Assembly: GCF_011742875.1 (NCBI RefSeq)
Contig: NZ_JAAQTL010000001.1
Span: 930,001 to 994,000, forward strand
Direction of reading: 5' to 3'
Source: Luteibacter yeojuensis
GTDB taxonomy: Bacteria; Pseudomonadota; Gammaproteobacteria; Xanthomonadales; Rhodanobacteraceae
DNA: 64,000 nucleotides
Shown: in pieces, positions 44,833 through 64,000 of the stretch
Numbering within the stretch: the stretch's first letter is position 1
Layout: every line of letters starts with the position of its first letter
Program-made: the position numbers and the translations under genes
The notes under the pieces: model-generated
The model's database searches: none
The model's input: the letters and a program-made list of their open reading frames with translations, nothing else
Told to the model about the DNA's origin: nothing

Positions 44833-44898
44833 TAGTCTCCGATGGAAAGATCGTTTCCAGGACCGGCCCGAGACCGGGCTCCGCCTGGTGTTGCATGC

Positions 44899-45949: not shown

Positions 45950-45972
45950 CGAAGCGGGCATGCGACAGCGCA

Positions 45973-47304
45973 TCAGGTATAGAGGCTTGCCCTCGATGTC
46001 TCCTCGGATACGTCGGCGGCAAAATCGTTCAGCAAGTCCAGTGGCGCGGTGAACTCTGCGAGCCGCTCATGCTGGGCGAGGAGGTTCCTGCAGCGCTCGA
46101 GCAGGGTGGCGCGCAACGCTTCGATGCGCCTCATCGCGGCATCCAGGCCTGTCCTGTCGACTTGCTGGACGCCATCGATATCGTACGTCAGCTTCTCCGT
46201 GATGGTTTGCCGCGCCCTGTTCACCAGGGCGAGCGAATCGGCCGTCACATGCTGCGTCTGCCGGACCAGCTCGTCTCCCACGGCTCGATCGGCGATCGCG
46301 CCGGTACGGGCGTGCATGTAGTCCACCACTCCCGAGATGGCATCCCTGGGCAATGCGCGTTCTCCGCTGGCGATGCCTTGCAGAGCGGCCGCCTGCACCT
46401 CGCCGCTTATGAATGCGCGCATGCCCTGCGACAGTTCGATCTTCGTGATGGAGGTCGCGACCTGATTCGTGAAGTGATCGATCAACGCGCCCAACGACCC
46501 CGTGGGTCCCGCGATGTGCGGCGCGTCGCTGTGGAGGGCCCCGAGCGCACTCAAGTCGTTCTGCTTGACCGCGTCGGCGCCAAGGTTCATCGCGGGTTGC
46601 GCGGTCCAGTTGGCGATCTGGGTGGACGACCCTGCGCCGGTCCAGTGGTATTCCTGCAGGGAGTACCCGAAGCTCGTCGGCAACAACGTCTCGACAGGGC
46701 GGAGGTTGGCGTTGGCGTGGTCGCCGTAATTCGCTGTCACGGTGTATTGGAATAGCCGTTTCTGCGGTTGCTGACGCGCCTCGATGATGGGCGCTTCGAT
46801 ATCGTTCAACGCCGCGGCATTGAAGGTCTTCGTCGCGGGGACGATGTTCGCCGGAACGCCCTCGCCGCCCAGCTTGTGCGCGAGCAGGTGACAACGCTCG
46901 TATATTCCCCCGCGCATGTCGTTGATCGCCTGGAGCGCGAAAGTCAGGTTCGTGTTGATCGCGCCGCTGCCTGCCTTGAAGGCACCAAGCCTCGCGCTGC
47001 TCGTGGCCGGAACGTTGAAGGCGCCGCGCGTCTGCGTGGTGTAGTTCGCCGTGGAAGCGGGTAGTCCGTAGAGCGATGACACCGGGTTCGCTCCGCTGAA
47101 GGCCGGAATGGCGATCTTTCGCTGGATCGGCGCGTTGCCGTCGACAGGCGCCTCCCGCAGCCGGGACAGATGGCTTTCCTGGTGGCGCTGCCTGGGGCTC
47201 GTGTCGACCTTTCGCTGGATCGGAGGCGCGGGCAGGCGACCGCCCGCCGAGGCGACCGGCGAGCCGCCCTTGCCGACGCGTTCGTCCTGCACGGCGTCCT
47301 TCAT
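45973..47304 (-). CDS. Putative eCIS cargo with nuclease-like domain
   Basis: This 443-residue protein is the last gene of the eCIS array. The N-terminus carries PPIQRKVDTSPRQ (QRK 30-32) and a second PIQRK (59-63); QRK/VQRK motifs are common in proteins tied to eCIS loci. Residues about 130-210 resemble the DNA/RNA non-specific endonuclease fold (YERCHLLAHKLGG, H139; NIVPATKTFN, N153 and N162; E170). The remainder (about 230-443) is alpha-helical with no family I recognise. No signal peptide is present. It is probably a payload loaded into the tube; no immunity gene is visible. Cargo status is inferred from position and motif. Confidence 0.65.
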   Translation of the reverse strand: MKDAVQDERVGKGGSPVASAGGRLPAPPIQRKVDTSPRQRHQESHLSRLREAPVDGNAPIQRKIAIPAFSGANPVSSLYGLPASTANYTTQTRGAFNVPATSSARLGAFKAGSGAINTNLTFALQAINDMRGGIYERCHLLAHKLGGEGVPANIVPATKTFNAAALNDIEAPIIEARQQPQKRLFQYTVTANYGDHANANLRPVETLLPTSFGYSLQEYHWTGAGSSTQIANWTAQPAMNLGADAVKQNDLSALGALHSDAPHIAGPTGSLGALIDHFTNQVATSITKIELSQGMRAFISGEVQAAALQGIASGERALPRDAISGVVDYMHARTGAIADRAVGDELVRQTQHVTADSLALVNRARQTITEKLTYDIDGVQQVDRTGLDAAMRRIEALRATLLERCRNLLAQHERLAEFTAPLDLLNDFAADVSEETSRASLYT

Positions 47305-47317
47305 GTCCTGGCGCTTT

Positions 47318-47512
47318 TTACTTGCCGCCCTTGCCCTTCTTCGCCCCCGCTTTTTCCTTCGGCTTTTCTCCCTTCAGCTGCGCGATGTGAGCGGCCTCAC
47401 CCACCTGTCGCGGGCTATCCGCTGCTTTCCTCTGCACGGGACCTCTCGCATCCGACGCTGCCGCCGCCGGCTCGATCGCACCTTTTGCCTGCTTCACGGG
47501 TTCCGCTTTCAT
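47318..47512 (-). CDS. Small basic protein with VQRK/SPRQ motif
   Basis: This 64-residue protein is encoded between the GH18-like gene and the cargo gene. Its middle, VQRKAADSPRQVGEAAHIAQL (Q27 to L46), lines up without gaps with the N-terminal motif of the cargo protein. The tail is lysine-rich (KEKAGAKKGKGGK). Its ATG overlaps the upstream stop as ATGA, so the two genes are coupled, and a 13-base gap precedes the cargo gene. It could be a loading adaptor, a mini-cargo, or a decoy carrying the signal alone. No family is recognised. Confidence 0.7.
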   Translation of the reverse strand: MKAEPVKQAKGAIEPAAAASDARGPVQRKAADSPRQVGEAAHIAQLKGEKPKEKAGAKKGKGGK

Positions 47513-49920
47513 GGTTTCTCCACCCTTGGTTTGAGCATGTGATAAGCGATCGTCGCGACCAGCGCGACCAATACCACGGCGAGCAACGCGTTGCCTTGCC
47601 GTACCTGCGCCAGTGCCGGATCGCCCAGGAGCAGCAGCCCACCGAGGACCAGGAAGACGATGGCGCCAAGCAACAGGCCGAGCTGGAACGGCAGGCCGAC
47701 CTGCCGCATCCGGCAGCTCGATTGGTAAACGACGAAGGCGATCAGCCACACCAGGAGGACGGCCTCGGCGAGGATGCGCAAGGGCCAACGGTATTCGCAG
47801 ACCCATCCTTTCAGGCTTTCGGTGCGCGGGGGACGTGGCAGGAAGCTGCGCCGGACCCGCGCGGCGGCCACGCCGCCGAGGGGCTCGTCCAGGGCGGGGG
47901 CCGCCCAGAATCCCGCACCGCCGAAATTATCCGATGCGTACGAAAGGTCTTCGGTAAGATCCTCGCCGGTCGACGCACCCGTGGAAACGATCGGGATCAC
48001 CCGGCGAAGCAGGATCCGGCACATCTCTTCGGATATGTCCTTGTCGCGATCGATCGTAACAAGGATCTCGCGCATGCTGTTCGCGCTCGGCTGGGTGAGC
48101 AGCACCATGTATCGCAGCGAAAGATTCGTGCCGCTCTGTTCCCGCGCGTTCCCGCCGGGCACCTTCCCGCCCCGTGGATCCAGCGCCTCGGCCTGGCCCA
48201 GGTACTCCGCCATGCGGCTGGGAGTCCAGATGGCTCCCGTCCCGGTCAGGTCCGTGTCCCGCAGCACGATATTGAGCACGTAGGCGCGCTGACGCCGGCG
48301 CAGTTCGGCGACGAGGCCGCGAACCTGCTGGTTGAGGTAGCGCTCGAACGCCGGCCGCAGCGGATCGTCGGCCCCGGGCATCCGATCCAGGTACAGGGTC
48401 AGGCCGTTGCCGTAACGTTCCACCCTGGCGAAGCCGGGAACCCACGCATGGACACGCGATGCGAGATCGGAGAGCGGCGTGTCGATGAAGTTCGTCGCCT
48501 GGACGGCCAATCGCTCGGCGATGTCCCTGACGTTGTCGTCCGTGGCGTCTTGGAGGAAGCGCCAGTCGTTGTGGTAGAGAGTGTAGTCCAGGGCGGTTTT
48601 CTGCCGCTGTGCCTCGCGGATGAAGGCCGTATCCTGTGCCGTCGTCCAGCCGGGTTCCATCAGGTCGCCATTGTCGGCGAACCAGAGCGCGAACACGCTG
48701 ATGCGCGAAAGCATGCTGAAATCGAGACGGCGAGGCGCGGCGCCGTTGTCCCAGTATGGATAGAACCCGTAAACCTGTCCGCTCAGCGCGCGAACGCAAC
48801 CGCAGCCGGCGCCGGACCATGACGGCGCGGCGGGCTGGATCAGCGAATGGGACTGCTTCGCCTTCTCGATCAGCAGCGCGTGCATGGACGCGCTCATCAG
48901 CCATTGGGGTACCTGTTGCCACGGCAAGTGGCTTGGCGGCACCGAATCGTCGGCGCTGGCCACCTTCGACCAGTCGGGCGGGCAGTCCGAGTCCTTCATG
49001 ACGGGCGGAGGCTGGTGCTGCCGGTTCGCCGCCGCCACGATCATCTCCCTGGAAAAAGCGCACAGCCTTGTGTCCAGGGCCGCCACGAACAGATCGCGCC
49101 CGGGAAATTCGACACCGACCAGCGGCGCGAGCATCCGCTGGAACTGTGCCTTGGCATCCACGTCGACGGTCGGGTCCACGAACTCGTTCCTGGGGACGCT
49201 CTTGCCCTCGGCCTTGCCCTCGTCCTTGGCCGTGCCGCCGTCCGCGCCTTCTTCCTTCTCGTCCGCGGGCTCGGGTTCCGCGGCCGGGATGAGGCCGGCG
49301 ACCTCCGTGACATCGGCGGAACGTCGCTTGAGATCCGCAAGCACGTCCTTGTCCTTGAAGATATCGGGAGTAAGCCTGTACACATCCATCGTCGACTGCG
49401 GCGACGACGGCGCGGCGAGCGTCTCGATCAATGGCACGGTCGTGAGCGGCTGGGGAGGAAGCGGCTTGGGCGGCGGCGGCGTTTCCTCCGGCTTCTTCGC
49501 GGGCTCCGCCGGACGAGGCGGCCTGGGCCGCGGTTCCGTCCTGGGAGGCGGTGCCGGCCGCGGCGCCATGATCGCAAGCCTGTACGTCTGCTGCGCGATG
49601 CAGCCATGTCGATCCCGTACTCCGGCGACGAACACCGCCACCATCGGCAAGGTGGCCGGTGCACCCGCGAGCTCGCCGGCGGCACTGAGGGACATGCCGG
49701 GTGGAAGACTCTCCGACCGGTAGGTATACGGCGGCACGCCGCCGGTGGCGCGCAGCGTGTAGCGATAGGGCTGTCCCACGGTGCCGGAAGGCAAGGTCAT
49801 CACGCTGTCGCCAAGGCGCAACGGCTGCACCTCGGCGCACGTGAGCGCCGACGCGGCCGCCGGCGCGCCGACCAGCAGCGCGAGCAGCATGCCGAGTCCG
49901 CGTCGCACGAAGGAACTCAT
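47509..49920 (-). CDS. Secreted, membrane-anchored GH18-like protein of the eCIS locus
   Basis: This 803-residue protein has a signal peptide (MLLALLVGAPAAASA), a putative Ig domain (about 38-118; ATGGVPPYTYRSESLPPGMSLSAAGELAGAP), a proline-rich linker (120-160), an acidic segment (215-245), a GH18-like region starting at GQVYGFYPYWDN (381-392) and three C-terminal membrane helices (about 715-732, 747-765, 778-795). I do not see the DxxDxDxE motif of active GH18 chitinases, so it may bind rather than cut. It follows the AAA+ gene with a 4-base overlap. Export to the periplasm with an inner-membrane anchor suggests a role in envelope attachment or release of the particle. Confidence 0.75.
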   Translation of the reverse strand: MSSFVRRGLGMLLALLVGAPAAASALTCAEVQPLRLGDSVMTLPSGTVGQPYRYTLRATGGVPPYTYRSESLPPGMSLSAAGELAGAPATLPMVAVFVAGVRDRHGCIAQQTYRLAIMAPRPAPPPRTEPRPRPPRPAEPAKKPEETPPPPKPLPPQPLTTVPLIETLAAPSSPQSTMDVYRLTPDIFKDKDVLADLKRRSADVTEVAGLIPAAEPEPADEKEEGADGGTAKDEGKAEGKSVPRNEFVDPTVDVDAKAQFQRMLAPLVGVEFPGRDLFVAALDTRLCAFSREMIVAAANRQHQPPPVMKDSDCPPDWSKVASADDSVPPSHLPWQQVPQWLMSASMHALLIEKAKQSHSLIQPAAPSWSGAGCGCVRALSGQVYGFYPYWDNGAAPRRLDFSMLSRISVFALWFADNGDLMEPGWTTAQDTAFIREAQRQKTALDYTLYHNDWRFLQDATDDNVRDIAERLAVQATNFIDTPLSDLASRVHAWVPGFARVERYGNGLTLYLDRMPGADDPLRPAFERYLNQQVRGLVAELRRRQRAYVLNIVLRDTDLTGTGAIWTPSRMAEYLGQAEALDPRGGKVPGGNAREQSGTNLSLRYMVLLTQPSANSMREILVTIDRDKDISEEMCRILLRRVIPIVSTGASTGEDLTEDLSYASDNFGGAGFWAAPALDEPLGGVAAARVRRSFLPRPPRTESLKGWVCEYRWPLRILAEAVLLVWLIAFVVYQSSCRMRQVGLPFQLGLLLGAIVFLVLGGLLLLGDPALAQVRQGNALLAVVLVALVATIAYHMLKPRVEKP

Positions 49921-51278
49921 CCCAGGGTCCTCCCTTCCTTGCCGAGCTCCTTCGCCAGGGCCGCGCGCAGATGCGCGGCACCTATCCGGTTGGCACCGGT
50001 GCGCGCGGCCTGCAATACGGCAAAGCGCAAGGCGTTGACGATCGCGCCGCCGGAGAGGACGTAGCGCTCAGCCAGGGCCTCCACGTCGACGTCCGGCGCC
50101 ACGCGGCCCACTTGCGGAAGGAGACTTTGCCAGAGTCGCAGTCGTTGCTCGGCGTCGGGCATCGGGAAATACACCATGGATTGGAAACGGCGGGAGAAGG
50201 CTTCGTCGAGGTTCCCGCGCAGGTTGCTGGCGAGGATCACCACGCCGGGGAAATCCTCCACGCGCTGGAGCAGGTACGCGATTTCCTGGTTGGCGTGGCG
50301 ATCGTTGCTGTTCTGTACCGCGCCGCGCTTGCCGAACAGCGCGTCGGCCTCGTCGAAGAACAGGATCCAGCGCCGGCTCTGCGCCTGGTCGAACACGCGG
50401 GCCAGGTTCTTCTCGGTCTCGCCGATGAATTTCGACACCACCATCGACAGGTCGATGCGGTACACGTCCACGCCGGTGCTTTGGCCGAGCAACGTGGCCG
50501 AAAGCGTCTTTCCCGTCCCGGGCGGCCCATAAAACAGGCTGCGGTATCCCGGCTTGACCACGCGTGCGAGCCCCCAGTCGCGCATCAGCCGCGGACCGTC
50601 GTTCAACCACGTCCGGATCATGTCGATCTCGTCCATCACGTCGGGCGAAAGCACCAGGTCCGACCAGGTCAGGCCGGTGGTCACACGTTTCGCCGGAAAC
50701 TGGATGTTGTAGTCCGGCTTGTCCGCGACGCCCGTCTGCAGGCGCTGCAGCGATTCCGCACTGACCGTGAGGGCACCGCTCAGCTGCGGCTCGTTGCCGG
50801 TTCCCTCGCCGTCCAGCCGCAAGACGTCCCGCGAAACGAGCGGATGGTGCGCGTCGAAGATCCCAAGCAGCGCGATCCGCGACGCCAGCCGGTCTCCCGC
50901 GACCAGGAATGCCGCCGTCTCGCCGGTCGGCAGGAAGCCGCCGTGGCGCTGCGCCTTCCAGCCGCCGAATTCGGTGAAGCCACGGTCGAGGTTCTGGTTG
51001 CGGACGAAGAGGAGGTCGAGCAGCCCGGGCCGCACATGGGGTGCTATCGCCAGGGCGAGCACGGCGCGCTCGCGGGCTTGCAGGCCGAGATCGGCGATCA
51101 GCACGGCCAGCGCGCTTTCCGGCGGCAGGACGGGCGGCGCGGGAGCCGCTTCGAAGCCTTCCGGCTGCTGCTGGAAATGCTGTTCCAGACGAAGGTCGAC
51201 GATGCGCTCGAGCCATCGCAATTCCTGCTCGAGCGCCGACGCGTGAACCCTGTAGCGATCCTCATCGCCATTCGACAT
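49917..51278 (-). CDS. eCIS AAA+ ATPase (Afp15-like)
   Basis: This 453-residue ATPase has an N-terminal helical domain (1-200) and a C-terminal AAA+ domain with Walker A GPPGTGKT at 251-258, Walker B FFDEAD at 307-312 and the arginine-finger-like SRRFQ. In Afp/PVC systems this ATPase is an assembly or reset factor and is encoded near the 3' end of the operon. It overlaps the tape-measure gene by 17 bases and the GH18-like gene by 4 bases. The family call is strong; its step in assembly is not proven. Confidence 0.92.
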   Translation of the reverse strand: MSNGDEDRYRVHASALEQELRWLERIVDLRLEQHFQQQPEGFEAAPAPPVLPPESALAVLIADLGLQARERAVLALAIAPHVRPGLLDLLFVRNQNLDRGFTEFGGWKAQRHGGFLPTGETAAFLVAGDRLASRIALLGIFDAHHPLVSRDVLRLDGEGTGNEPQLSGALTVSAESLQRLQTGVADKPDYNIQFPAKRVTTGLTWSDLVLSPDVMDEIDMIRTWLNDGPRLMRDWGLARVVKPGYRSLFYGPPGTGKTLSATLLGQSTGVDVYRIDLSMVVSKFIGETEKNLARVFDQAQSRRWILFFDEADALFGKRGAVQNSNDRHANQEIAYLLQRVEDFPGVVILASNLRGNLDEAFSRRFQSMVYFPMPDAEQRLRLWQSLLPQVGRVAPDVDVEALAERYVLSGGAIVNALRFAVLQAARTGANRIGAAHLRAALAKELGKEGRTLG

Positions 51279-53082
51279 GGATCACCTCCTTCATCCAGGG
51301 CAGCCGGATCGTTCCGTACGTCCAGGGAAGCCGGTCGAGCAGCACGTCGAAGGGACTCGGTTGCACCTTCAGCCGCCAATGTTCGCGGTCGAAGGCTTCG
51401 TGCTCGACCATGCGCCCGATACGTTGGAGGAAGGTCTGGCGAAGTCCGTGCGGCGATGTCCGGCCCAGCGCCTGCCAATGCGCGACCACGGCGGGCAGCA
51501 GGCTGTCGAGGACAGGCAGGAGCGTCCCCAGCGGCGCGGCCGGCGGCACCGGCTCGTCGATCGGCAGGCCGCACAGCAACTTGTTGAGCACCCATTCGTG
51601 CTCCTCGCTGCCGGTGTGTCCGTCGCTGAGATACACGAGGCAGTGTACAGCCCGATACTGCGCGGCCCGGTCGACGAAAACGCCATCGCTCGTCAGGCCG
51701 ACCATGTCGAAGAGTCGCGGCGCATAGTTGGCGAGCAGCACCAGGCCCGCGTTAGCGATGTAGATCGCTTCGTTGTCCGGGTGGTCGTCCGCGGGCGAAA
51801 CGCTGCCGTCGCTCCGACGGCCGTGCTTGATGTGCGGCCGCTCGTCTCCCCGCTCGGTCGTTCCCCGGCCGGTGCGCGCGATATCGAACACCTGCGCTTC
51901 TTCCTCCGTGCCCATGGCATCCAGCGCTTCCTGCCAGACACCGTGCCAGGCGACGTGGTCCTGGGGAACGCGCTTCGTCTCGGCGAGATAGGCCAGACTG
52001 TAATCGAACAGGTGGATCTGCAAGGCCGACAGGCCGAGTCCCGCGGTGCGCACGCAGGCGTCGGACTGGTGCAGGAGCGCGAACTGCCGCAGGGACTCCT
52101 GCCACGTGCCGGGCAAGGTGTCGGCGAGGTTCGTGTCCTGCGTTTCCGCCCCGTCCGCGGGCGAAGCCACGGCTGCCCTGCCCTCGTCGGCGCGCGTACG
52201 ACGGGTATCGAGGAGGCGTAGCCGCAGGCCGAGGAAAAGGCTGCGCCGGAGTCCCCCCGCATCCCTCCCCGGCGAAGGCGAGCGGAGACGGAGAGCCCAC
52301 GCCACGGTTTCGTCCCTCCCGACGACCGTCAACAGGCTGCCGCACAACGCGTCCATGAGCTGGCGTAGCCGGGTCACTCCGAGATGGCTGCTGCGGCTGG
52401 TCCACAGCGCATGCAGCCCCGCCACGCGCCATGCCTGCCGCATCTGCGCAAGCTGGTAGGCATTGAGGCGGCCCTGCGCGCGCAAGGGTTCGAGCAGCGC
52501 CTCGTCGAGGTCTTCCAGGCCCTGTGCCAATTCGGCGTGGCGCACGGCCAGGAGTGCGTGAAGGCCATGATGCGGCGCGATCTGGCTCAGCCGCCGAACC
52601 GCGCGCTCGGGGTGCGGGAGGCGAAGCAAGGCCGACCACAGCCGCGGCCCGGATTGCCGTGCCAGGTGGCTCAGCCACTCGGCCAGCGAGGCGTGGGCGA
52701 GCGACGGCATCGACCAGTGCAGTCGCCCGTTCTCGACGTAATAGAGGAAGTTTTCCAGCGCGCGGTATCCTTCCCCGCGCCGTCCGGGCATGCGCTCTTC
52801 GTCCTCCTGACGCTGCCGCCGCAACGCCGTGTCGAGCGCGAGTTCCAGATGCCGCTCCCATACGGCGGTGTCCGCATCGGCGGGCAGGTCGCCCAGGTCG
52901 ATCTCCAGCCGGTCGACGCGCCACACGTGCCCGTGCGACGAAAGGCGATCGAACGACCGCTCGAGCAGGCGCGCCCCGTCGCCGAGGATGAAGTCCCGCA
53001 GCCGTTGCTGCGTGGCGACGGCGTGGATCCGGTCGTCGCTGTGGCAGGACCACTCCAGGGTTTCGATCATGTGGCGGCTCAC
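51262..53082 (-). CDS. Contractile injection system tape-measure protein (CIS_TMP)
   Basis: This 606-residue protein matches the CIS tape-measure family: WRVDRLEIDLGDLPADADTAVWE near residue 60, LENFLYYVENGRLHW after it, and the C-terminal YIANAGLVLLANYAPRLFDMVGL. In eCIS it sets the tube length or occupies its lumen; it corresponds to Afp14. GTG 53082 overlaps the previous stop as GTGA; ATG 53070 is a possible alternative. It lies immediately after the Afp12-like gene. Confidence 0.82.
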   Translation of the reverse strand: MSRHMIETLEWSCHSDDRIHAVATQQRLRDFILGDGARLLERSFDRLSSHGHVWRVDRLEIDLGDLPADADTAVWERHLELALDTALRRQRQEDEERMPGRRGEGYRALENFLYYVENGRLHWSMPSLAHASLAEWLSHLARQSGPRLWSALLRLPHPERAVRRLSQIAPHHGLHALLAVRHAELAQGLEDLDEALLEPLRAQGRLNAYQLAQMRQAWRVAGLHALWTSRSSHLGVTRLRQLMDALCGSLLTVVGRDETVAWALRLRSPSPGRDAGGLRRSLFLGLRLRLLDTRRTRADEGRAAVASPADGAETQDTNLADTLPGTWQESLRQFALLHQSDACVRTAGLGLSALQIHLFDYSLAYLAETKRVPQDHVAWHGVWQEALDAMGTEEEAQVFDIARTGRGTTERGDERPHIKHGRRSDGSVSPADDHPDNEAIYIANAGLVLLANYAPRLFDMVGLTSDGVFVDRAAQYRAVHCLVYLSDGHTGSEEHEWVLNKLLCGLPIDEPVPPAAPLGTLLPVLDSLLPAVVAHWQALGRTSPHGLRQTFLQRIGRMVEHEAFDREHWRLKVQPSPFDVLLDRLPWTYGTIRLPWMKEVIHVEWR

Positions 53083-55547: not shown

Positions 55548-56350
55548 TTGCGCTCTCCGTCCATGTGCGGATCGAACCAGAGCTGGGTGACATGCGCCTT
55601 GATCGCGATGCCCTTCCCGTAGTCGCATCCGGTGCGCACCTGCAAGCGATACACCGCGTTGCGGCCATGGGTGCCGTGCCAGCGGAGTTGCAGCCGGTCG
55701 CACCGGCGGGAATAGAACGCGTGGGTCGCGTCGATACCCCGCTTGCGATTGAAGAAGTCGAAGATGCCGAGCGTGGGATTGTAGGCATTGAGCGCGACCG
55801 CGTGGACGAGGGCGAAATGCCCTTCGCCCTGATGGCCGGCACCGGCGGTCACTTCGAAGGCCTGGCAGCCATCCAGATCGTCGGTGAGGTCTTGCCACTG
55901 CCCGTTGGCAAGGAGCGCGACGGCGGGCGAGCGCGCATAGCTTCCGCGTCGCCCCTTGCTGCGCACGATGCCGTCCACGTCGAGCGCCTCCTCCGGCTGG
56001 GCGCGTCGGATGCCCACGCGGCCCGAGGGGTCGAGCGTCCATAAGGGGGGCACCGCCTCGGGAGCCGCGTCGCCGGCAGGCGGCTGGTTGGAACGGATGA
56101 GCAGCTGGCCTTGTGCGCCGCCGAAGCCGACCGACCACAGCGGCGCGTCCGGGTCCTGGTCGCGAAAGAAGCTCAACAAGGCTTCGTAACCCGCCGCGGC
56201 GGAAATCTCGAAACCGCGCTCGACCGACTTGCTGAAGCCCTCGTCGCTCATGTTGAGCATGGAGTCGATCAGGTCGGCGAAGTGCGCCTGCGTGGGCAGG
56301 GACCCGTCGGCGAAATAGCTGCGCAGGGATTCGCGGTTGCGGATGGTCAT
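55544..56350 (-). CDS. Fibre-like protein inside the eCIS baseplate genes
   Basis: This 268-residue protein begins RNRESLRSYFADGSLPTQAHFADLIDSMLNMSDEGF, an N-terminal attachment-like domain found in eCIS loci. The middle reads GRVGIRRAQPEEALDVDG, close to the repeat of tail-fibre proteins with an endosialidase-chaperone-like domain. The end has a beta-rich part (VYRLQVRTGCDYGKGIAIKAHVTQLW). It could be a short receptor-binding or baseplate fibre. Its ATG and stop overlap both neighbours by 4 bases. No recognised family name; the role is inferred. Confidence 0.6.
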   Translation of the reverse strand: MTIRNRESLRSYFADGSLPTQAHFADLIDSMLNMSDEGFSKSVERGFEISAAAGYEALLSFFRDQDPDAPLWSVGFGGAQGQLLIRSNQPPAGDAAPEAVPPLWTLDPSGRVGIRRAQPEEALDVDGIVRSKGRRGSYARSPAVALLANGQWQDLTDDLDGCQAFEVTAGAGHQGEGHFALVHAVALNAYNPTLGIFDFFNRKRGIDATHAFYSRRCDRLQLRWHGTHGRNAVYRLQVRTGCDYGKGIAIKAHVTQLWFDPHMDGERK

Positions 56351-59300
56351 CGTCCCGCACCGCCCATGATGAACGTGCCGCCGATCTCGAGCCTGCCTAC
56401 GCCGGTCGGCTGTTCGTCGCGGGAGGCGCCCGCACCGGCCAGCTCGATGAGGTGCCTGGGCCTGGGCAGCACCAGGCTCCAGGACTGCGCGGGACGCACC
56501 ATGCGCACCGGCGCACCGGCGCGCGCACGGCCGGTATCGTAGAGCCGGTACGTATTGTCGTCGCGACGGACGATGTGCAGGAGCGACATCGAGCCGATCG
56601 CCTCGACATCGTCCAATCCGCGAAGGTACGCCTCGATGGCCTCGGCACGCACCTCCCAGTCGAAACTGGCCCGGCACCCGTCCTCGTGCCAGGGCGACAG
56701 GTATTCCACGACGGCGCGGTTCGCGCGGAACAGGGCGGCGCCCGGATGCGCGCCATTCACCAGCCGGAGCGTGCAGCGCACCTGGATGTATTCGTAGACC
56801 GCGTTACGAACGACGATCCGCAATCCGGGCGCGCTGCGCTCGCGCAGGTAGGCCATCATTTCCTCGAGTACCGCCGCATCGAAATGCGGCGCGTCCGTGC
56901 TGTGGAACAAGATGCCCCGCTGCGGAGCCGGAACCACCACGACGAGTACTCCTCCGGGGCCGCCGGATACCGCGGCCTGGCCCGCTTCGCCGTTGACGAA
57001 ACACTTCGCCTTGAAGATGTCCGGAAACGCATCGAGCAGGAGCCGCTCGTAATCCCATGGTGTGCTCGCCCGGTCCTTGTGCCGCAGCCGTTCCGCACTG
57101 CGAACGCGCAGCATGCCCGGCGTCTCCGGCTGGGCGATGCCGAACGACGGGCCGATCTGCTGCACGGAGAGAAGGCCTCCGACAGGTTGCAGGGGCGTCC
57201 GCACGCTCCCCGGAGCCAGCGGCAACGTCGAGTCTCCCGCGCCGCGCCGGTGGACGCGAGTGGCCGTGATGGCCTGGGTATAGATGCCATAGAGACCGGC
57301 AAGGCGTTCGAGGACACCGTCGGCGCTCAGCCGTATCCAGTACAGCCGGCCCGGCCACTGCGGACAGTCGCGCGTCATGCCGGCGGGCAGATCGACAGCG
57401 ACGATGCCGCTGCGCAGGAAGCCCATGGTGCCGTCCGACAATACCCGCTCGGATTCGAGCTCGCGCCACTCGCCCTCGCTCCAGACGGCCCAGCTCGTCG
57501 CCGGCAACGGCGCCTGCCAGCTCTCGGCGGCGCTCTCCGCGCGGAGGCTGAAATACAGGCTCAGGGCGCCGCACGGATCGGTGCCGGACAGCCCTATGTA
57601 CAGGTTGCCCTGGTGCACGTAACGCGGCAGCAGCGGTACCCCGTCCATCCCCGGCCTCGCGCGGGGCGTGTCGTACCCGAAAGGATGCAGGTGCATCAGC
57701 TTTCCGAACGACGAAGGGGTCGTCGCCTTCAGCGAGATCCGTTCGCTGGCCACGTAGTCCAGCGATACCTGGTCGACCGTCGGCGTGTACGGTTCGTTCG
57801 GCAACGGCCTCACGAGCCCGGCTCGACGGGATCGCGCGTTGCCGGCCATGGTTTCCGACAGCAGCCGCGGATACAGCGCATGTCCGAACGCCGCCTGCGG
57901 ACCGGCGAGTTCGAGCCGGAAGAATCCGTTGCGCGTGGACGTGCCGAACGCGAACGGTTCGGGCACCGACGCCTGCGCGCGATGGTAGAGCGAGAGGTCG
58001 CTGCCGGGCAGCGAAAGCGTGGCGTCCGGGCTCAGGTGCCGTTCGCCGTGGAACAGGCTCTGCAAGCCTTCTCCGCTTCGCCACTGTCCGTCACGCAGGA
58101 TCGCGGGTTTGACCTGGAAGCCGGACGCGGACCAGGAACCCGGATAATCGCGGTACCACGCCGCGAAACCTCCCTCCTCGCCCGGCAACCGTCCCCACAG
58201 GACATGGAGGCGAAGTTCGCGCAGCGGCTTGCCGGCCAGCTCATCGTTGCCGAACAGACAGTAGTCGCCGACGGCGGGCAAGGGCCCGAAAGGCTGGAAG
58301 GGCTTGCCGGCGTCGAGCCGGCCCAGCTGGTTGTAGATCACGAGGCCGCGCACGCCCGCGACATGCGTCGACAGCGTGATGTCGTGCAGTACCACCTGTT
58401 CCAGGAGGCTGAATGCATACAGGCGCGTACGCGTCTGCAAGGTCAGCCGCAGCACCGGTTGCTCCGGGCACGCCGTGCCGTGCACGGACGGCTTGCACGA
58501 CACGACCGGCGGCTGTTCCTGGCCGAGATGAATGGACAACTCGATGCATCCGCCCCAGCCGAAGCCCTCGCTCGTCCGGCGGACGGCAAGCACGTCGCCC
58601 GGCACCAGCCAACCGTCGGCAACGCTGAATTCGGCTTGCCAGACACCGCGGAACACCCTGTTGAAGATCAGTTCGCGGTCGGGACCGCCCTGGCCTTCGT
58701 CGTGCTCGTGCGGGTAGATCAGGATCAGGGGATCGTCCAGTTCGACGGCCCGTGCATCGCCGCCGCCGAGCAGGCCGGCCGCGCGAGCACGCAAGGCGGC
58801 GGTGTCCCGTGGGTGCAACGCTTCGTTGCCGGCTATCAGCCAGGCGGCGAACAGGCGGCCCAGGCAGGCCTTGAACCGGTCCGCGTCGTCCTGCGCGAGA
58901 CAGGACGCCACGAGATAGCACAGGCGTACGTCGCCCTCGGTACGCGGCGCGCGCCCCCACGCCGCCTCGGCGCGCTGCGCAGCCGGGGATGCCGGCGTCG
59001 ATCCGAAGGCATCCGCGTGCAGCCGCATCCCGGCGGCATCGAAACGGGCGAAGACGTCCGCCAGCCACGCGGCATCGCGCGCTCCCGCTTCGCGACGCAG
59101 CAGCGCGGCGAGGTTGTCGTCGTCGACGGCCGGATGCGACAGGCGAAGCAGCAGCCGCACCCTGCGGTCGCCCTCTTTCAGCGCGAGCATCGGCGACACC
59201 AGGGCGAAACCGAGCCTGGCATGTGCCGCGCCGGCCGCCGAGCCCTTGGCCTCGCCGCCCAGGAGCGGCCACCACGACGGCTCCCCGACATAGGCCGCGT

Positions 59301-60339
59301 CCGGAGACCGCAGCGGAATCTCCTGCGCGAGCGCGCGCGTCGCATAGCCGAACTCCCGTTCCGGCGAGATCAGGGGATCGTGGTCCATGCGCAGGCTGTA
59401 AAGCGCGGCGACCTCGTTGTCGGTCACTTCCAGCGCGTGGTCCGAGGCGAACTCGATGCCCTGCCCATGCATGTCCTTGCCACCGACGAAGCGCGTCCCG
59501 CGCGGCAGGTACACGGGCGGCGCGTACGTGGCGTCCCTCGTGAAGCGCAGGTAGACGCGCTCCTCCGGTGGGCGCCGCGGGCGCATGCGCAGGATATCGA
59601 GGAAATAGAAATCGGTGAGGCGCTCGGGGAAGCGGTTCACCTCCGTCCGCGATGCCTGGAAGATCTCCAGGGCGGCCATGAGCAGGCCCATCGCGGGTTC
59701 GTGCTTTCCGTTGGCGAGGCTTGGCGGAAGCTGCGACAACGCGATCGGCTGCAAGCGCGCGAGCGACACGCAAAGGGCGCCCCACAAGCGCCGCAGCAGC
59801 GACCTGCGGCTACGGCCGCCCCTCGGCACGCTTCCCCCGCGGTCGGCCACGGCATCCATGCGCCACGCCGGATGCATTTCCCTGGCCGACGGTTCGTCCC
59901 ATCCGAAAGAGCGGACCGCCTCGTGCAGGAGATCGCGCAGGTTGTTTCCAATGGCCGCCATGGTCGCCTGCAACACATGCACCGCGGTCCGGGTCTCGTG
60001 GCGGGCGAGCCAGCGGCACCAGCCGTCGACGCGGGACACCACCTGGCGCACGCGCCACCACAGGTGCCGTTCGTCAGCCCATCCCCAGACCTCCGCAAAC
60101 GCCTGCTTCGCCTGGTCCAGGGGGAAGGACGCCATATCCGCGAGCACCACGCTCTCGTCGCGAAGGAGCGCGTCGTCCCAGCACCCGGCGGTGCCGCCGT
60201 CGCCGGTGGCGAAGCGGACATGGGCCGCATAGCCGAGGATCAGGCGGATGCGCTCGGCCAGGCTGAATTCGTCGGGCACGACATAGCCGCGACGAAGTGC
60301 GTCGGCAAGGCGTTCGTCCTGTTGCGTTCCGCTGTTCAT
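56347..60339 (-). CDS. eCIS large baseplate protein J-like (Afp11-like)
   Basis: This 1330-residue protein is the largest in the operon. It has a long N-terminal region, a middle with many aromatic beta-segments (LTDFYFLDILRM near 255, NYQLGRL-like VIYNQLGRLDAG), and a C-terminal part with TPWDYERLLLDAFPDIFKAKCFV and EEMMAYLRERSAPGLRIVVRNAVYEYIQVRCTLRL, which is the family mark of baseplate J/Afp11-like proteins. It would form a wedge of the baseplate around the spike. It starts 15 bases after the gp25 gene and overlaps the fibre-like gene by 4 bases. Confidence 0.85.
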   Translation of the reverse strand: MNSGTQQDERLADALRRGYVVPDEFSLAERIRLILGYAAHVRFATGDGGTAGCWDDALLRDESVVLADMASFPLDQAKQAFAEVWGWADERHLWWRVRQVVSRVDGWCRWLARHETRTAVHVLQATMAAIGNNLRDLLHEAVRSFGWDEPSAREMHPAWRMDAVADRGGSVPRGGRSRRSLLRRLWGALCVSLARLQPIALSQLPPSLANGKHEPAMGLLMAALEIFQASRTEVNRFPERLTDFYFLDILRMRPRRPPEERVYLRFTRDATYAPPVYLPRGTRFVGGKDMHGQGIEFASDHALEVTDNEVAALYSLRMDHDPLISPEREFGYATRALAQEIPLRSPDAAYVGEPSWWPLLGGEAKGSAAGAAHARLGFALVSPMLALKEGDRRVRLLLRLSHPAVDDDNLAALLRREAGARDAAWLADVFARFDAAGMRLHADAFGSTPASPAAQRAEAAWGRAPRTEGDVRLCYLVASCLAQDDADRFKACLGRLFAAWLIAGNEALHPRDTAALRARAAGLLGGGDARAVELDDPLILIYPHEHDEGQGGPDRELIFNRVFRGVWQAEFSVADGWLVPGDVLAVRRTSEGFGWGGCIELSIHLGQEQPPVVSCKPSVHGTACPEQPVLRLTLQTRTRLYAFSLLEQVVLHDITLSTHVAGVRGLVIYNQLGRLDAGKPFQPFGPLPAVGDYCLFGNDELAGKPLRELRLHVLWGRLPGEEGGFAAWYRDYPGSWSASGFQVKPAILRDGQWRSGEGLQSLFHGERHLSPDATLSLPGSDLSLYHRAQASVPEPFAFGTSTRNGFFRLELAGPQAAFGHALYPRLLSETMAGNARSRRAGLVRPLPNEPYTPTVDQVSLDYVASERISLKATTPSSFGKLMHLHPFGYDTPRARPGMDGVPLLPRYVHQGNLYIGLSGTDPCGALSLYFSLRAESAAESWQAPLPATSWAVWSEGEWRELESERVLSDGTMGFLRSGIVAVDLPAGMTRDCPQWPGRLYWIRLSADGVLERLAGLYGIYTQAITATRVHRRGAGDSTLPLAPGSVRTPLQPVGGLLSVQQIGPSFGIAQPETPGMLRVRSAERLRHKDRASTPWDYERLLLDAFPDIFKAKCFVNGEAGQAAVSGGPGGVLVVVVPAPQRGILFHSTDAPHFDAAVLEEMMAYLRERSAPGLRIVVRNAVYEYIQVRCTLRLVNGAHPGAALFRANRAVVEYLSPWHEDGCRASFDWEVRAEAIEAYLRGLDDVEAIGSMSLLHIVRRDDNTYRLYDTGRARAGAPVRMVRPAQSWSLVLPRPRHLIELAGAGASRDEQPTGVGRLEIGGTFIMGGAGR

Positions 60340-60354
60340 GGCTTCCGCGCGCGA

Positions 60355-60765
60355 TCAGGCCCGCACCGGGTGGGTGGCCTGGTGCAGATAGAAGGGATAC
60401 ACGAGGTTGTGCCGGCTGTTGGTGCCGCGCACCGTGTAGTCGAGGGCGATCTCCAGCTTGCCGTTGAGCGGGTCGACCAGCTGCGCTTCGATGCGGTTCA
60501 GCACGATCCGCGGCTCGTAGAACAGGATGGCCTTGCGCATGAGCTCCTTGATCTCGGTGACGGTCTGTTCGTTCGCCTCCTCGAACACCATGCGGCGCAG
60601 GTCGCAGCCGTAGTTCGGCAACATGACCCGCTCCCCGGGGTTCGTCGAGAAAAGGATGTGCAGGCTTTCGGCGATGTCGGTCTCGTCCGCCACCATCACC
60701 GCTTCCTTGGTGCGCGGGTCGAACCGCGGCGGAAAACTCCAGCCCCTCCCCAGGAAGCTCGACAT
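60355..60765 (-). CDS. Baseplate gp25-like protein (Afp9-like)
   Basis: This 136-residue protein is the lysozyme-like gp25/W family baseplate subunit. Its DIAESLHILFSTNPGERVMLPNYGCDLRRMVFEEAN segment is typical. It connects the baseplate to the sheath. The gene is 2 bases after the PAAR gene and 15 bases before the large baseplate gene. The start ATG 60765 gives the usual short N-terminus (MSSFLGRGWSFPPRF). Confidence 0.92.
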   Translation of the reverse strand: MSSFLGRGWSFPPRFDPRTKEAVMVADETDIAESLHILFSTNPGERVMLPNYGCDLRRMVFEEANEQTVTEIKELMRKAILFYEPRIVLNRIEAQLVDPLNGKLEIALDYTVRGTNSRHNLVYPFYLHQATHPVRA

Positions 60766-60767
60766 GT

Positions 60768-61067
60768 CTACCCTCCGATGATGACGGTGAAGCAACCCAG
60801 GACGACGCTGCCGCCGTGCGCGGTCGTGTCGCCGATGCGCGCCGCGGGCTTGCCGCCGATCATCACCGTGGCCGATCCCTTGACGATCGCATCGGGCGGA
60901 CCGACGCAGGTCGCCGTGTCGCCCAGCACCGCGGCCGGCAGCTTGGCGATCAGCACCGTCGGCACGCCGGGGCCGACGATCGGGCCGCCCACATGGGGAA
61001 CCGGCGGCACGCCGGGTGTCACCATCGGGCACGTATGCATATCGGTCAGGCGGGCGGCGGGCGGCAT
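60768..61067 (-). CDS. PAAR-domain spike tip protein (Afp10-like)
   Basis: This 99-residue protein is a PAAR-repeat protein: MPPAARLTDMHTCPM at the start, the proline/glycine-rich VPHVGGPIVGPG core, and GDTTAHGGSVVLGCFTVIIGG at the end. PAAR proteins form the sharp metal-binding tip on the spike. Cys/His residues for the metal are present. It follows the VgrG-like gene by 9 bases. Confidence 0.93.
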   Translation of the reverse strand: MPPAARLTDMHTCPMVTPGVPPVPHVGGPIVGPGVPTVLIAKLPAAVLGDTATCVGPPDAIVKGSATVMIGGKPAARIGDTTAHGGSVVLGCFTVIIGG

Positions 61068-61076
61068 CGGGATTCC

Positions 61077-62864
61077 TCAATTGATCAGGACCATCGCGCC
61101 CTTGACCGTGGTCGTCGCGGCGGCGGAAAGTTCGGCGGACGCCGAACCCTTTCCCGTGAACGCCGCCTGCGCTTCGCAGGTGACGTTCATGCCGGTCGCC
61201 TTCAGGTCGGCCGTGGCGGCGATATCGATCGCGCCGTTGGCGGAAATCGTCACGTTGCCCTTGGCCGTGAGCTTGATGTCCGACTGGCTGTCCAGGGCGA
61301 TACCCGCGCTGGACAGCTTGGCGCTGTTGTTGTGCTGGTCGAGAACGGTGATGGACTGGTCCTTGTCGTCCAGCACGACCTGGTTGTTGCCCGGGGTGAT
61401 CACCGTGATGATCTTGTCGTTCTCGTTGAACTCGATCTTGTGCAGGCACCGCGTGACGATCGCCTTGGTGTTGTTCTGCGCTTCGATGGTGTAAGGCGGC
61501 TGACGGGAACTGCTGTAGAGCGAGCCCAGCACCACCGGACTGCTGGGATCGCCGTTGAGGTAGCCGACCAGCACTTCGTCGTCGACCTCGGGCATGAAAA
61601 AGGCGCCGAATCCGCTGGAGGCGTGGAACTGCAACGGGCGGGCCCAGATCCCGGGCGTCGTCGCCTGCATGACGGGAATCTTGACCTGTATCCGCTGCTC
61701 GCCCATGGGATCGCCATCGAGCTTCACCACCACGCCGATCTGCAGTCCGCTCACGCCAGGCAGCAGTCCGCCGTTGAGCGGTGCCGCGACGTCGTCGCGC
61801 TCCACGTGCCACTCCGGGCGCAGGCCGAATTCGACCTGGGTCGTCCAGTGGCCACTGCCGAGCGTGTGTTCGATCGACGTGACATAGACCGAACCGCTGA
61901 AGCGCGCGCCCACGCCCTTCACCTCGATAAGGCTGTCGGGAACCGCCGCCGCGCTTCCCACGAAGCTCATCCGCCCGCGAATACGCGCCAGTGCCGCCTT
62001 CTGCTGCGTGGCCTTGGCCCAGTCGGTGAGCCCGGCCAATGGTTGCGCCGCGCTGGTCTGGAGCACGTACTTGGCCGGACTGGCGACTTCCGCGAGGGTG
62101 GACCCGGTCAGGTTGCCTTGCGGATTGAGGCTCGCCGGGGAGGCCGGGTTTCCCTCCACGATCGCCTGCTGCTTGGGATCCCATGACACGGCCTGCACGG
62201 CCGTATACTGGGTGCGCGCATCCATGTCCGCTTCGAACGCGATGAGTTCGGTGCCCCACCCGACCGAGAGTACCGCGGCCCCGGACGTCGTCGGCGGCTT
62301 CACGTTCACGCTGCCGGCGTCCACGTTCACGAGCAGGCCGTTCGCATCCGCGCGTGCCAGCATGAAGTCCCAGTCGCTGCAGTAGAACTGCACCAGCTCG
62401 TCGTAGGTCGTCGAGGTGGCGGTCACGGATGCCGTCAGGCCATGGGCAGCGACCAGGCCGCTGATGATGTCGCTGTCCTTCTGCGCCAGGTAGTTCGCGT
62501 TGTTGCGCCCGATGGTCATGCGGGTCGCCGCATCGCGGCATTCCAGCACCAGGCGCGAGCTGGCCTTGCCGTCGATCCTCAGGCCATGGCGCACGACGAT
62601 GCCGCTGAAGATCGTGCCTTCGTCGTTTCCATACCCGGCACTGATCGTCAGCGCCACGCCCGGCACGAGGGTCGCGGCGTCGCTCAGCGCGAAGCTTCCG
62701 GTCGGCATGTCGCCGTCACTGATGACGATCTCCGCCCAGGGGATGCGGTTGATCGCCCGGCGGACGGTCACCGCGACCACCGGCAGGCTCGCCAGCTTCT
62801 GGCCGCCGGTCTCGATGGTCAGGCGCACCGGCCCGGCGGCGTGTGTATTGGGGGAATCGGCCAT
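61077..62864 (-). CDS. VgrG-like spike protein (Afp8-like)
   Basis: This 595-residue protein is the central spike. An N-terminal gpD-like domain (WAEIVISDGDMPTGSFALSD) is followed by the gp5-like OB-fold, with MPEVDDEVLVGYLNGDPSSPVVLGSLYSS near 470-500. The end is a beta-helix with repeated G/A-rich turns (SDIKLTAKGNVTISANGAIDI). It carries the PAAR tip. No toxin domain is fused. It starts 3 bases after the LysM gene. Confidence 0.93.
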   Translation of the reverse strand: MADSPNTHAAGPVRLTIETGGQKLASLPVVAVTVRRAINRIPWAEIVISDGDMPTGSFALSDAATLVPGVALTISAGYGNDEGTIFSGIVVRHGLRIDGKASSRLVLECRDAATRMTIGRNNANYLAQKDSDIISGLVAAHGLTASVTATSTTYDELVQFYCSDWDFMLARADANGLLVNVDAGSVNVKPPTTSGAAVLSVGWGTELIAFEADMDARTQYTAVQAVSWDPKQQAIVEGNPASPASLNPQGNLTGSTLAEVASPAKYVLQTSAAQPLAGLTDWAKATQQKAALARIRGRMSFVGSAAAVPDSLIEVKGVGARFSGSVYVTSIEHTLGSGHWTTQVEFGLRPEWHVERDDVAAPLNGGLLPGVSGLQIGVVVKLDGDPMGEQRIQVKIPVMQATTPGIWARPLQFHASSGFGAFFMPEVDDEVLVGYLNGDPSSPVVLGSLYSSSRQPPYTIEAQNNTKAIVTRCLHKIEFNENDKIITVITPGNNQVVLDDKDQSITVLDQHNNSAKLSSAGIALDSQSDIKLTAKGNVTISANGAIDIAATADLKATGMNVTCEAQAAFTGKGSASAELSAAATTTVKGAMVLIN

Positions 62865-62867
62865 GGG

Positions 62868-63560
62868 TCAGTCCAGCGGCGGAAAATGCAGGGTCAGGCC
62901 CGGCGCGAGGGCACGGAACGTCTGCAATCCGTTGAACCGGGCCACCTCCACGTAGTAGCGGCTGTCGCCATAGATGCGATGGCACAGCAGCGGCAGGGTG
63001 TCGCCATCCCTCACGACCACCGCGTGACTGAGGTCGGGCGATTGCATGTCGGCTTCGAGGGCCGCTTCGAGCGGCTTCTTGAAGCCCTGGAACGACATCG
63101 TCACCTTGGCGCGCAACGGGGCGCCGCTAGGACGGAAGAGCGTGTAATCGGTGGAGATGCTCGTTGCACGGCCGTAGAAGACGAGCGTTCCCCACAGCAC
63201 CTGCACCACGTTGGGTTCGTGCTGGGGACCGTTGTACTTGTGGATGATCGTGTCCAGCTTCGCGAGCTGGTCTTCGACCTCGGCGGGCAACTGGATGTTC
63301 GAGGGAATCGGAACGGCGCCGGTGCCGTCGAACACCGTGACGAAATCCAGCGTGTCGGGCTGCATCTTCGCGAAATTGCGCCCGCTGCCGGTATCCCCCA
63401 TGGGCACGCAGCCGCCAAACTCGGTCTGGCGCACCCAGGTCATTTCCGACGGATTGATCAGCAGCGAGATCGAATCGCCGGTCGCCTTGGGCGCATCGCC
63501 GCTGATGTCGCAGACCGTGATCTTCAGTTGCGATTTCCCCGAGGAGAGATTCGCCGCCAT
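62868..63560 (-). CDS. LysM-domain baseplate hub protein (Afp7-like)
   Basis: This 230-residue protein corresponds to Afp7/gp53-like hub proteins. The N-terminal body (LKITVCDISGD, NPSEMTWVRQTEF) is family-typical. A C-terminal LysM domain reads VVVRDGDTLPLLCHRIYGDSRYYVEVARFNGL. The hub links the tube to the spike; the LysM part is thought to contact the baseplate rather than peptidoglycan. It starts directly after the DUF5908 stop codon. Confidence 0.88.
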   Translation of the reverse strand: MAANLSSGKSQLKITVCDISGDAPKATGDSISLLINPSEMTWVRQTEFGGCVPMGDTGSGRNFAKMQPDTLDFVTVFDGTGAVPIPSNIQLPAEVEDQLAKLDTIIHKYNGPQHEPNVVQVLWGTLVFYGRATSISTDYTLFRPSGAPLRAKVTMSFQGFKKPLEAALEADMQSPDLSHAVVVRDGDTLPLLCHRIYGDSRYYVEVARFNGLQTFRALAPGLTLHFPPLD

Positions 63561-63767
63561 TCATCGCTCCCGCATCCGTTCCCACTCCAACGCGATGGCG
63601 GAGCGCATCTTCTGGCGCTCCTGCATGCCACCGCCACCTTCGCAGTCCACGTCGCACTCGCAGTCGTCGCTGGCCGCGCCGGCTTTTTCCGCGCTTTTCG
63701 CCGGCGCCTTGGCCTCGCCGGAACCGACGCTGGACTTGATCACCATCTGTCGAATCTCGATCGTCAC
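63561..63767 (-). CDS. DUF5908 small eCIS protein
   Basis: This 68-residue protein begins MTIEIRQMVIKSSV, the mark of the DUF5908 family that occurs in eCIS loci between tube and LysM genes. A cysteine cluster (CECDVDCEGGGG) follows, then a charged helix (MQERQKMRSAIALEWERMRER). GTG 63767 has GAGG 7 bases upstream. Its function is unknown; it is too small to be structural on its own. It lies 8 bases after the tail-tube stop. Confidence 0.8.
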   Translation of the reverse strand: MTIEIRQMVIKSSVGSGEAKAPAKSAEKAGAASDDCECDVDCEGGGGMQERQKMRSAIALEWERMRER

Positions 63768-63775
63768 GATCGGCC

Positions 63776-64000
63776 TCAATCGCTTCGTTGTACGTACTGG
63801 TAGGCCAGCTCGATGGTCTCGAGCGCCACCTCGTTGCGGGTGGAATTGAAACTGTCGATCTCCCAGCGAACCGGATAGGCATTGGCGAACGACCACGTCC
63901 GCAGGGGTGTGGCCGTCGCGTCGAGCAGCTTCACCGTGACCGGCGCGAGCTTGATCGCCACCGACAGGCCGCCTTCGAGCGTGCTCTTGCACCACCCCAC
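63776..64000 (-). CDS. eCIS tail-tube protein, C-terminal part (runs off right edge)
   Basis: The last 74 codons of a T4 gp19-like/Afp1-Afp5-type inner-tube protein are visible. SVAIKLAPVTVKLLDATATPLRTWSFANAYPVRWEID and ETIELAYQYVQ are typical of the phage tail-tube family. The 5' part, and presumably further tube and sheath genes, lie beyond the right edge. In eCIS operons tube genes precede the LysM gene, as here. Confidence 0.85.
   Translation of the reverse strand: MGWCKSTLEGGLSVAIKLAPVTVKLLDATATPLRTWSFANAYPVRWEIDSFNSTRNEVALETIELAYQYVQRSD

Follow-up and report, generated by a model that had tools for sequence, protein, structure and literature searches.

The locus considered here raises the question of what the last three genes of an extracellular contractile injection system (eCIS; CIS without the qualifier) are, and whether they form a single unit. 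The cluster is encoded by the soil bacterium Luteibacter yeojuensis (contig NZ_JAAQTL010000001.1) in a stretch of 64,000 nucleotides (nt), hereafter the window, which holds its 3' part on the minus strand; unless a strand is marked, all window features below lie on that strand, and coordinates prefixed L002 refer to the same contig past the window edge. After the AAA+ ATPase gene come genes for a GH18-like protein of 803 amino acids (aa) with a predicted membrane anchor (47509..49920), a basic 64-aa protein (47318..47512) and a 443-aa nuclease-like protein, which is the predicted cargo (45973..47304). A preliminary description of this DNA had proposed that the array runs into these genes without a terminator, and that they are a lineage-specific module holding cargo and an envelope factor. 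The intergenic spacing is -4 nt between the AAA+ and GH18-like genes, -4 nt between the GH18-like and 64-aa genes and 13 nt between the 64-aa and nuclease genes, and a scan of positions 45700-51400 found no promoter-like and no terminator-like sites (shuffle means of 0.6 and 3.3, respectively). Given these overlaps, the absence of such sites and the eCIS genes themselves, the earlier observation of a continuous array holds. The module, however, is made up of three distinct layers, namely a membrane component found throughout the branch, a free-standing tag found throughout the family and an exchangeable tagged cargo.

For the GH18-like gene, the notion of a lineage-specific unit is rejected. 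Among the best 80 of 369 AAA+ relatives in genome contigs, 56 of which are from non-Bacteroidota and 24 from Bacteroidota according to their record titles, the gene adjoins the AAA+ gene in all 56 non-Bacteroidota loci. It is the next gene in 51, lies downstream with a gap in two and upstream in two (including L052, with an E-value of 2.5e-4 only), and was recognized by a wider profile in one (L062), where it precedes a masked stretch. The locus nearest to that of the window is L003 of Luteibacter jiangsuensis, with 91% AAA+ identity. Among the Bacteroidota, the profile finds the gene in 1 of 24 loci (L046, weakly), and L069 is similar by eye only. Presence beside most homologous loci, on which the preliminary description had staked its module, was thus found for the GH18-like gene among non-Bacteroidota, whereas the nuclease is absent at most loci and the 64-aa gene is absent at most loci outside the Rhodanobacteraceae. 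Linkage was also evident in three genome samples with few genomes in common, namely 233 genomes of the same family, 398 of the phylum and 125 of another family; scoring took in at most the top 4 candidates of a genome in the first two samples and all candidates in the third. A full-length GH18-like profile (A1) matches 86 of the 233 same-family genomes, and among the matches listed, 8 reach past model position 214. The A1 search was confused by immunoglobulin (Ig)-like domains, and a C-terminal barrel profile (A3) was therefore used for the other two samples. All 8 full-length genes among the matches listed fall within the 13 same-family genomes encoding the tape-measure protein CIS_TMP; the barrel profile was found in 5 genomes of the phylum, all within the 9 with CIS_TMP above the cut-off, and in 28 of the other family, all within the 29 with CIS_TMP above the cut-off. 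In 27 of these 28, the GH18-like and CIS_TMP genes share a contig and a strand and lie within approximately 7 kb of each other. GH18-like homologues without an eCIS, which would have told against the proposed module, were not seen in the three samples.

The GH18-like protein is predicted to consist of a signal peptide, an Ig-like domain, a GH18-fold barrel and three C-terminal membrane helices, in this order. Hydropathy places hydrophobic segments at residues 8-31 near the N-terminus and at 712-738, 740-773 and 770-798 near the C-terminus, He_PIG is matched at 1.4e-6, and the predicted structure includes a (beta/alpha)8 barrel of GH18 type at residues 378-696 (47833..48789). The three predicted helices are followed by a conserved tail, KPRVEKP (together 47527..47787), in which K797, P798, V800 and P803 are invariant among 23 sequences. 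The catalytic motif of GH18 enzymes is DxxDxDxE. In the window protein it is replaced by NxxTxYxD (N505/T508/Y510/D512), and among 52 GH18-like relatives the second aspartate has become threonine or serine in nearly all, the third is usually tyrosine or phenylalanine, and the catalytic-acid position is N, K, H, T or P in several. PF00704 is absent from the Pfam matches of the window protein and is found in 2 of 29 members at E-values up to 0.1, the best being 0.09. A simple active chitinase is disfavored by the degenerate motif, because of which we read the protein as a putative membrane docking or trigger factor. An NCBIfam scan found no family for the GH18-like, 64-aa or nuclease protein, PADLOC matched the AAA+ protein alone and none of the 3' proteins, and PHROGs gave no match for the GH18-like and 64-aa proteins. 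A viral structure library returned Ig-like and general GH18 matches, and a plasmid search for similar proteins returned one record, covering the Ig-like part only.

A homologue of the barrel and membrane part is present in the PDB as chain B of 9r9a, an 864-aa 'Uncharacterized protein' (1.1e-50), the N-terminal half of which has no match to the full-length GH18-like profile. This protein has probably already been handled elsewhere together with a related CIS, because neighboring codes hold the closest PDB relatives of CIS parts, namely those of the sheath (9r9h, 9r9i, 9r9n and 9rce) and of the spike, gp25, J-like and LysM proteins (9rce). A PDB search with the AAA+ protein placed none of the 9r9/9rce series in the best 60 of 263 matches, and one with the tape-measure protein gave no match. 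With the 9r9a record, the GH18-like protein is less new, and its proposed role could soon be confirmed or corrected.

It is for the 64-aa protein (isoelectric point 10.1) that lineage specificity stands, the gene being family-restricted as far as searched. Homologues comprise 51 clusters of 59-70 aa, with Dyella, Luteibacter and Rhodanobacter as the named organisms, and the pairwise ratio of nonsynonymous to synonymous substitution rates (dN/dS) is 0.09-0.26 across 21 pairs of seven genes, several dS values exceeding 2 and lying near saturation. Purifying selection acts on this Rhodanobacteraceae protein family. In the window, the 64-aa gene shares 4 nt with the GH18-like stop, as it does in all seven fetched Rhodanobacteraceae loci; when longest contigs of equal size are paired, 15 of 29 GH18-like homologue clusters pair with a 64-aa cluster. 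The best-conserved stretch in the 51-cluster alignment is PRQxxEAAHIAQLKG, followed by a lysine-rich tail, and the tag core, GPVQRKAADSPRQVGEAAHIAQLKG (47369..47443), was delimited from this alignment and from a cross-search with the cargo-tag profile described below. AlphaFold yields a low-confidence helix at residues 34-47, a shorter one at 25-32 and nothing else. The protein is no enzyme and no envelope component; its core resembles a cargo tag. The proposed content of the module, cargo plus an envelope factor, therefore does not extend to this gene, while it is likely for the nuclease and GH18-like genes. As a separate observation, three Rhizobacter loci (L014, L015 and L023) encode, where Rhodanobacteraceae have the 64-aa protein, a short protein of 181-184 aa that comprises a tag and an eCIS_core-like part and little else, its gene overlapping the GH18-like stop by 4 nt.

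The nuclease is the last gene of the array and matches Endonuclea_NS_2 (PF13930) at 2.1e-8 (34.9 bits; cut-off 27 bits). According to the accessible part of one source, the 3' end of eCIS loci is a known cargo slot (PMC8213781), and by its position the nuclease is probably an ordinary 3'-end cargo that differs from genome to genome. A Pfam scan found no eCIS_core match in it, PHROGs gave one weak match of unknown function (5.2e-4), and a search that scored only candidates sharing most words returned two homologues, both bearing an NSPRM/NSARM..AQR tag. In the window protein, the tag, PPIQRKVDTSPRQRHQESHLSRLRE, spans residues 27-51 (47152..47226) and was a seed of the cargo-tag profiles. When a profile of 12 cargo tags, with no small protein among its seeds, was run against 24,476 frames (80 loci plus the window), the 12 best non-seed matches (E-values of 0.0005 to 0.35) all lay 3' of a GH18-like gene. 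They correspond to six of the seven small proteins plus six open reading frames (ORFs) in Burkholderiales loci L009, L010, L011 and L013; the 13th match (0.44) looks like chance. Moreover, the motif [ST][PSA][RLQ]xxxQ occurs ahead of the eCIS_core signature, as defined by a regular expression, in 32 of 46 non-Bacteroidota ORFs, compared with a mean of 4.6 and a maximum of 11 in 1000 shuffles, and in the C-terminal windows of just 1 of 46. A stricter form gave 10 of 46 versus 0.03. The eCIS_core ORFs are mutually related, and the 32 of 46 is therefore a count of non-independent cases. A second tagged nuclease-like protein is encoded at the 5' end of the operon, approximately 5 kb past the window end (L002:6699-7763, minus strand), with two tag-like SPRQ/SPMQ stretches, eCIS_core (3.2e-12) and an Endonuclea_NS_2-like end (4.3e-5, under the cut-off). 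Of nine cargo ORFs scanned in relatives, seven contain eCIS_core and three (L003, L007 and L016) an Endonuclea_NS_2 match under the cut-off, both being present in L003.

Based upon these features, we favor a joint reading, the chances of which we regard as evenly balanced, that combines a GH18-like envelope factor, tag-marked cargo and a free tag acting in loading. The GH18-like protein would be exported and held in the inner membrane by its three C-terminal helices, with the Ig-like domain and the barrel facing the periplasm, the barrel probably being non-catalytic and used for binding. The short conserved tail would lie on the cytoplasmic side, the site of particle building, and the protein would dock or trigger the particle at the membrane in the manner of Streptomyces CisA. 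Cargo would be marked by an N-terminal tag, approximately S-P-R-Q-x-x-Q-x-x-x-L-x-Q-L here and S-P-R-x-x-A-Q-R elsewhere, and the nuclease, which carries the tag, would be one such cargo and presumably toxic. The 64-aa protein would represent the tag without a cargo domain, equipped with a lysine-rich tail and encoded by a gene overlapping the GH18-like gene, and it may take the same loading site, on the AAA+ protein or the tube, as a primer, plug or loading regulator. This free-tag role is the least certain step.

Several observations weigh against these proposals. Because the 80 loci were the top scorers among 369, they are skewed toward relatives, and the best-4-per-genome scoring renders GH18-like absences in the 233- and 398-genome samples less certain. 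The gene was not found in 5 of 13, 4 of 9 and 1 of 29 CIS_TMP genomes, which amount to nine different genomes; five of these have tape-measure frames of 469-514 aa and two have broken or partial ones, but the remaining two have frames of 615 aa (G364) and 1485 aa (G345). In one genome of the other family (G677), the GH18-like and CIS_TMP genes are approximately 144 kb apart. The predicted model of the GH18-like protein has a mean predicted local distance difference test (pLDDT) score of 72.6 and that of the 64-aa protein 58.7, the catalytic-acid position is often still acidic in GH18-like relatives, and L006, among eight Rhodanobacteraceae loci, has a broken 64-aa frame. As for the tag, the motif is missing in 14 of the 46 non-Bacteroidota eCIS_core ORFs and present in none of 12 from Bacteroidota. 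A profile seeded solely with the small proteins retrieves cargo tags weakly (best E-value 0.014, next 0.29, then mixed with chance matches), and in its own genome the nuclease tag (0.098) ranks behind a chance match (0.019) at C2:361041, antisense to another long ORF, such that this own-genome search returned chance-level matches. In 17 of 48 loci, an earlier, narrower and different regular expression matched on the 3' side of the GH18-like gene, in some by chance, with a background of 19/756 ORFs downstream, 3/830 upstream and 5/2567 on the other strand.

Other explanations can be offered for each part of the module. Were the GH18-like protein a working periplasmic glycosidase that cuts peptidoglycan for particle exit or firing, the substitution of the catalytic motif, its degeneracy across the 52 relatives and the scarcity and weakness of PF00704 matches would be difficult to explain, and we consider this function unlikely. 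A shield of the producer, i.e. a periplasmic protein that protects it from its own particle or cargo by binding or as an immunity factor, would suit an ectodomain that is periplasmic by prediction, and no other immunity candidate adjoins the nuclease by eye, no dedicated search having been made. The GH18-like protein is nevertheless conserved while the cargo varies between loci, unlike cargo-specific immunity, and a shield is accordingly very doubtful. That all three genes constitute a separate transcription unit merely adjoining the eCIS operon is barely credible in view of the 4-nt overlaps, the lack of promoter-like and terminator-like sites between them and the linkage seen for the GH18-like gene across many genomes.

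The 64-aa protein, which we prefer to view as a free tag acting in loading, could instead be a small basic effector that is itself tag-loaded and delivered. Its tag and lysine-rich tail are compatible with delivery, and longer basic proteins with a tag-like stretch in the equivalent position are encoded by Roseateles L009 (142 aa, net charge +18) and Paucibacter L013 (108 aa, net charge +14); the 51 clusters vary little in length and sequence, however, unlike cargo genes, and we rate this alternative as somewhat unlikely. A remnant of a former cargo gene in the same slot would be reminiscent of the short tag plus eCIS_core-like protein at the same coupled position in the three Rhizobacter loci and of the broken frame in L006. 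The low dN/dS values in the 21 pairs and the 51 homologous clusters nonetheless make a remnant quite improbable.

The docking or trigger role is proposed by analogy with CisA in addition to the linkage. CisA is a membrane protein of the Streptomyces coelicolor CIS that, in the accessible part of its description, is required for function and firing; it resembles the GH18-like protein in being a cluster-encoded membrane protein that is conserved with its CIS type and has an ordered periplasmic domain (PMC12237407). Conservation with one CIS type is evident here from the linkage, and the membrane nature from hydropathy. CisA differs in that it crosses the membrane once, its N-terminus being cytoplasmic and disordered and its C-terminal domain resembling substrate-binding domains, and it belongs to type IId loci (PMC12237407); judging from the domains described there, the GH18-like protein departs from this layout, with a predicted signal peptide at the start, an Ig-like and a GH18-like domain and, at the C-terminus, three predicted helices. 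In Anabaena, a CIS anchored in the thylakoid is likewise membrane-held, although there, according to the part of the report available, it is Cis13 itself that bears a membrane helix, whereas in our system the membrane part would be the GH18-like protein (PMC8894136). The nuclease shares with the eCIS-associated toxins bearing DUF4157/eCIS_core, as partially available sources describe them, a 3'-end position, an enzymatic domain and, if its tag acts as proposed, an N-terminal loading region, but unlike them it has no eCIS_core match (PMC8213781, PMC11297309). The PVC/Afp loading signal is a disordered N-terminal leader required for loading through the AAA+ protein; for the nuclease tag, the analysis covered position (residues 27-51) and motif. 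A helper of the MAC system, JF50_12605, is undetected in particles yet needed for efficient association of the Mif1 cargo, according to the accessible part of its report (PMC6748791); compared by description, the 64-aa protein looks like a tag rather than a folded chaperone.

The protein in the position of the tail fiber (Cis13) is also pertinent to how such particles meet membranes. This 268-aa protein (55544..56350) had no match in the Pfam scan; its closest PDB match, a weak one confined to the first 40 residues (E-value 0.12), is All3316, which is Cis13 in the thylakoid CIS of Anabaena, and no segment is strongly hydrophobic, the 19-aa hydropathy peaking at 1.2. Its identity to the corresponding protein of Burkholderiales L009-L011 is 54% over 263-266 aa. 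In the same loci, identities are 66-67% for the AAA+ protein, 39-43% for matched tape-measure parts and 32-40% for Afp12-position, J-like and GH18-like parts, the Afp12-position protein itself being at 34-37%. In matching Nitrosomonas loci, the fiber-position protein is at 37-39%, no higher than most tape-measure parts, and in Bacteroidota at 29-36%. Receptor-binding fibers diversify rapidly, as the part of one source available to us states (PMC12923769), and at this locus the conservation seems to fit a fixed partner better than changing targets. A far broader extension, which we regard as considerably more prone to be wrong than right, is that a large and little-characterized branch of 'extracellular' CIS in Pseudomonadota, Nitrospirota and Desulfobacterota docks from inside to the inner membrane of the producer itself. 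A pseudo-GH18 membrane protein would then be the dock, sensing the cell wall from the periplasm and taking the place of receptor-binding fibers, and tag-based loading would be gated or primed by a free tag whose gene overlaps that of the dock.

The new parts are the free-standing tag protein and the sequence-recognizable tag. In the literature covered, from which subscription papers were largely out of reach and which partly consisted of the top matches listed, we found neither the GH18-like nor the 64-aa protein described, nor the tag motif. For this branch of CIS, a candidate can now be offered both for how particles meet the membrane and for how cargo gets chosen: one membrane protein that accompanies the system across phyla, and a short tag recognizable by eye. 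Such a tag would allow cargo lacking eCIS_core, for example the window nuclease, to be found in genomes, and the module as a whole could make it testable how these injectors find a membrane and load their cargo.

The remainder of the cluster conforms to the eCIS gene order that had been claimed, with the named genes present and most backed by a profile or PDB match. At the window edge is the C-terminal end of a second tail-tube protein (63776..64000; whole gene L002:1776-2273, Phage_T4_gp19 1.1e-40), followed by a DUF5908-like small protein (63561..63770; PF19265 9.9e-5 and 23.5 bits, under the 27.7-bit cut-off) and the LysM-type tube/spike connector (62868..63560; CIS_tube PF19266 2.3e-35, PDB 9rce_H 1.4e-43), the LysM-like Phage_tail_X match of which (0.0022) is under its cut-off. 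Next are the VgrG-like spike (61077..62864; Phage_base_V 8.3e-22, PDB 9rce_F 6.7e-162), the PAAR tip (60768..61067; PF05488 1.9e-23), the gp25-like baseplate protein (60355..60765; PF04965 5.2e-25) and the J-like baseplate protein (Cis11/Afp11; 56347..60339), which had no match in the Pfam scan and was recognized by PDB 9rce_A (7.3e-120) and the baseplate wedge family phrog_6 (2.6e-5). Beyond the fiber-position gene lie the Afp12-position protein (53079..55547), a conserved ORF without a match in the Pfam scan that is named by position, the tape-measure protein, the start of which is uncertain (51262..53070; PF19268 2.4e-88 on 51262-53094), and the AAA+ ATPase in the Afp15/Pvc15 position (49917..51278; PF00004 4.5e-27). 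In the parts list of the preliminary description, the tube, LysM, spike, PAAR, gp25, J-like, CIS_TMP and AAA+ proteins are thus borne out, the Afp12-like label rests on position and conservation, and the fiber-like label is weak. Past the window edge, the same contig encodes two gp19-type tubes, a sheath, a Pvc16_N protein and a LuxR-type response regulator, such that sheath, tube, spike, PAAR, gp25, J-like protein, tape measure, AAA+ protein and Pvc16-like terminator occur in a single cluster. The response regulator gene (L002:5810-6469, minus strand) is immediately upstream of the Pvc16_N gene and is perhaps the operon's own regulator.

A number of neighboring genes were also encountered. 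A small S-adenosylmethionine (SAM)-methyltransferase-like gene, not seen in the window module, is found repeatedly in the interval from the GH18-like (or AAA+) gene to the cargo (L004:14061-14684 and L007:13944-14552, as well as L022, L026, L032, L033, L041, L076 and L078) and after the AAA+ gene in Bacteroidota (L030, L034, L049, L055, L080, L081 and L082); the L004 copy matches Methyltransf_25 at 1.6e-10 and the other copies are alike by eye. In Luteibacter jiangsuensis, a gene that is beta-galactosidase-like by eye directly adjoins the cargo (L003:16336-19173), and in the window a gene of similar appearance lies approximately 22 kb from the cluster (20516-23407, plus strand). Closer to the cluster, two sensor-kinase-like genes flank a NarL-type response regulator by eye (40146-42259, plus strand), and near its 3' end are short ORFs that by eye resemble metallo-beta-lactamase-fold and flavin oxidoreductase fragments (44425-45234, minus strand), possibly decayed genes.

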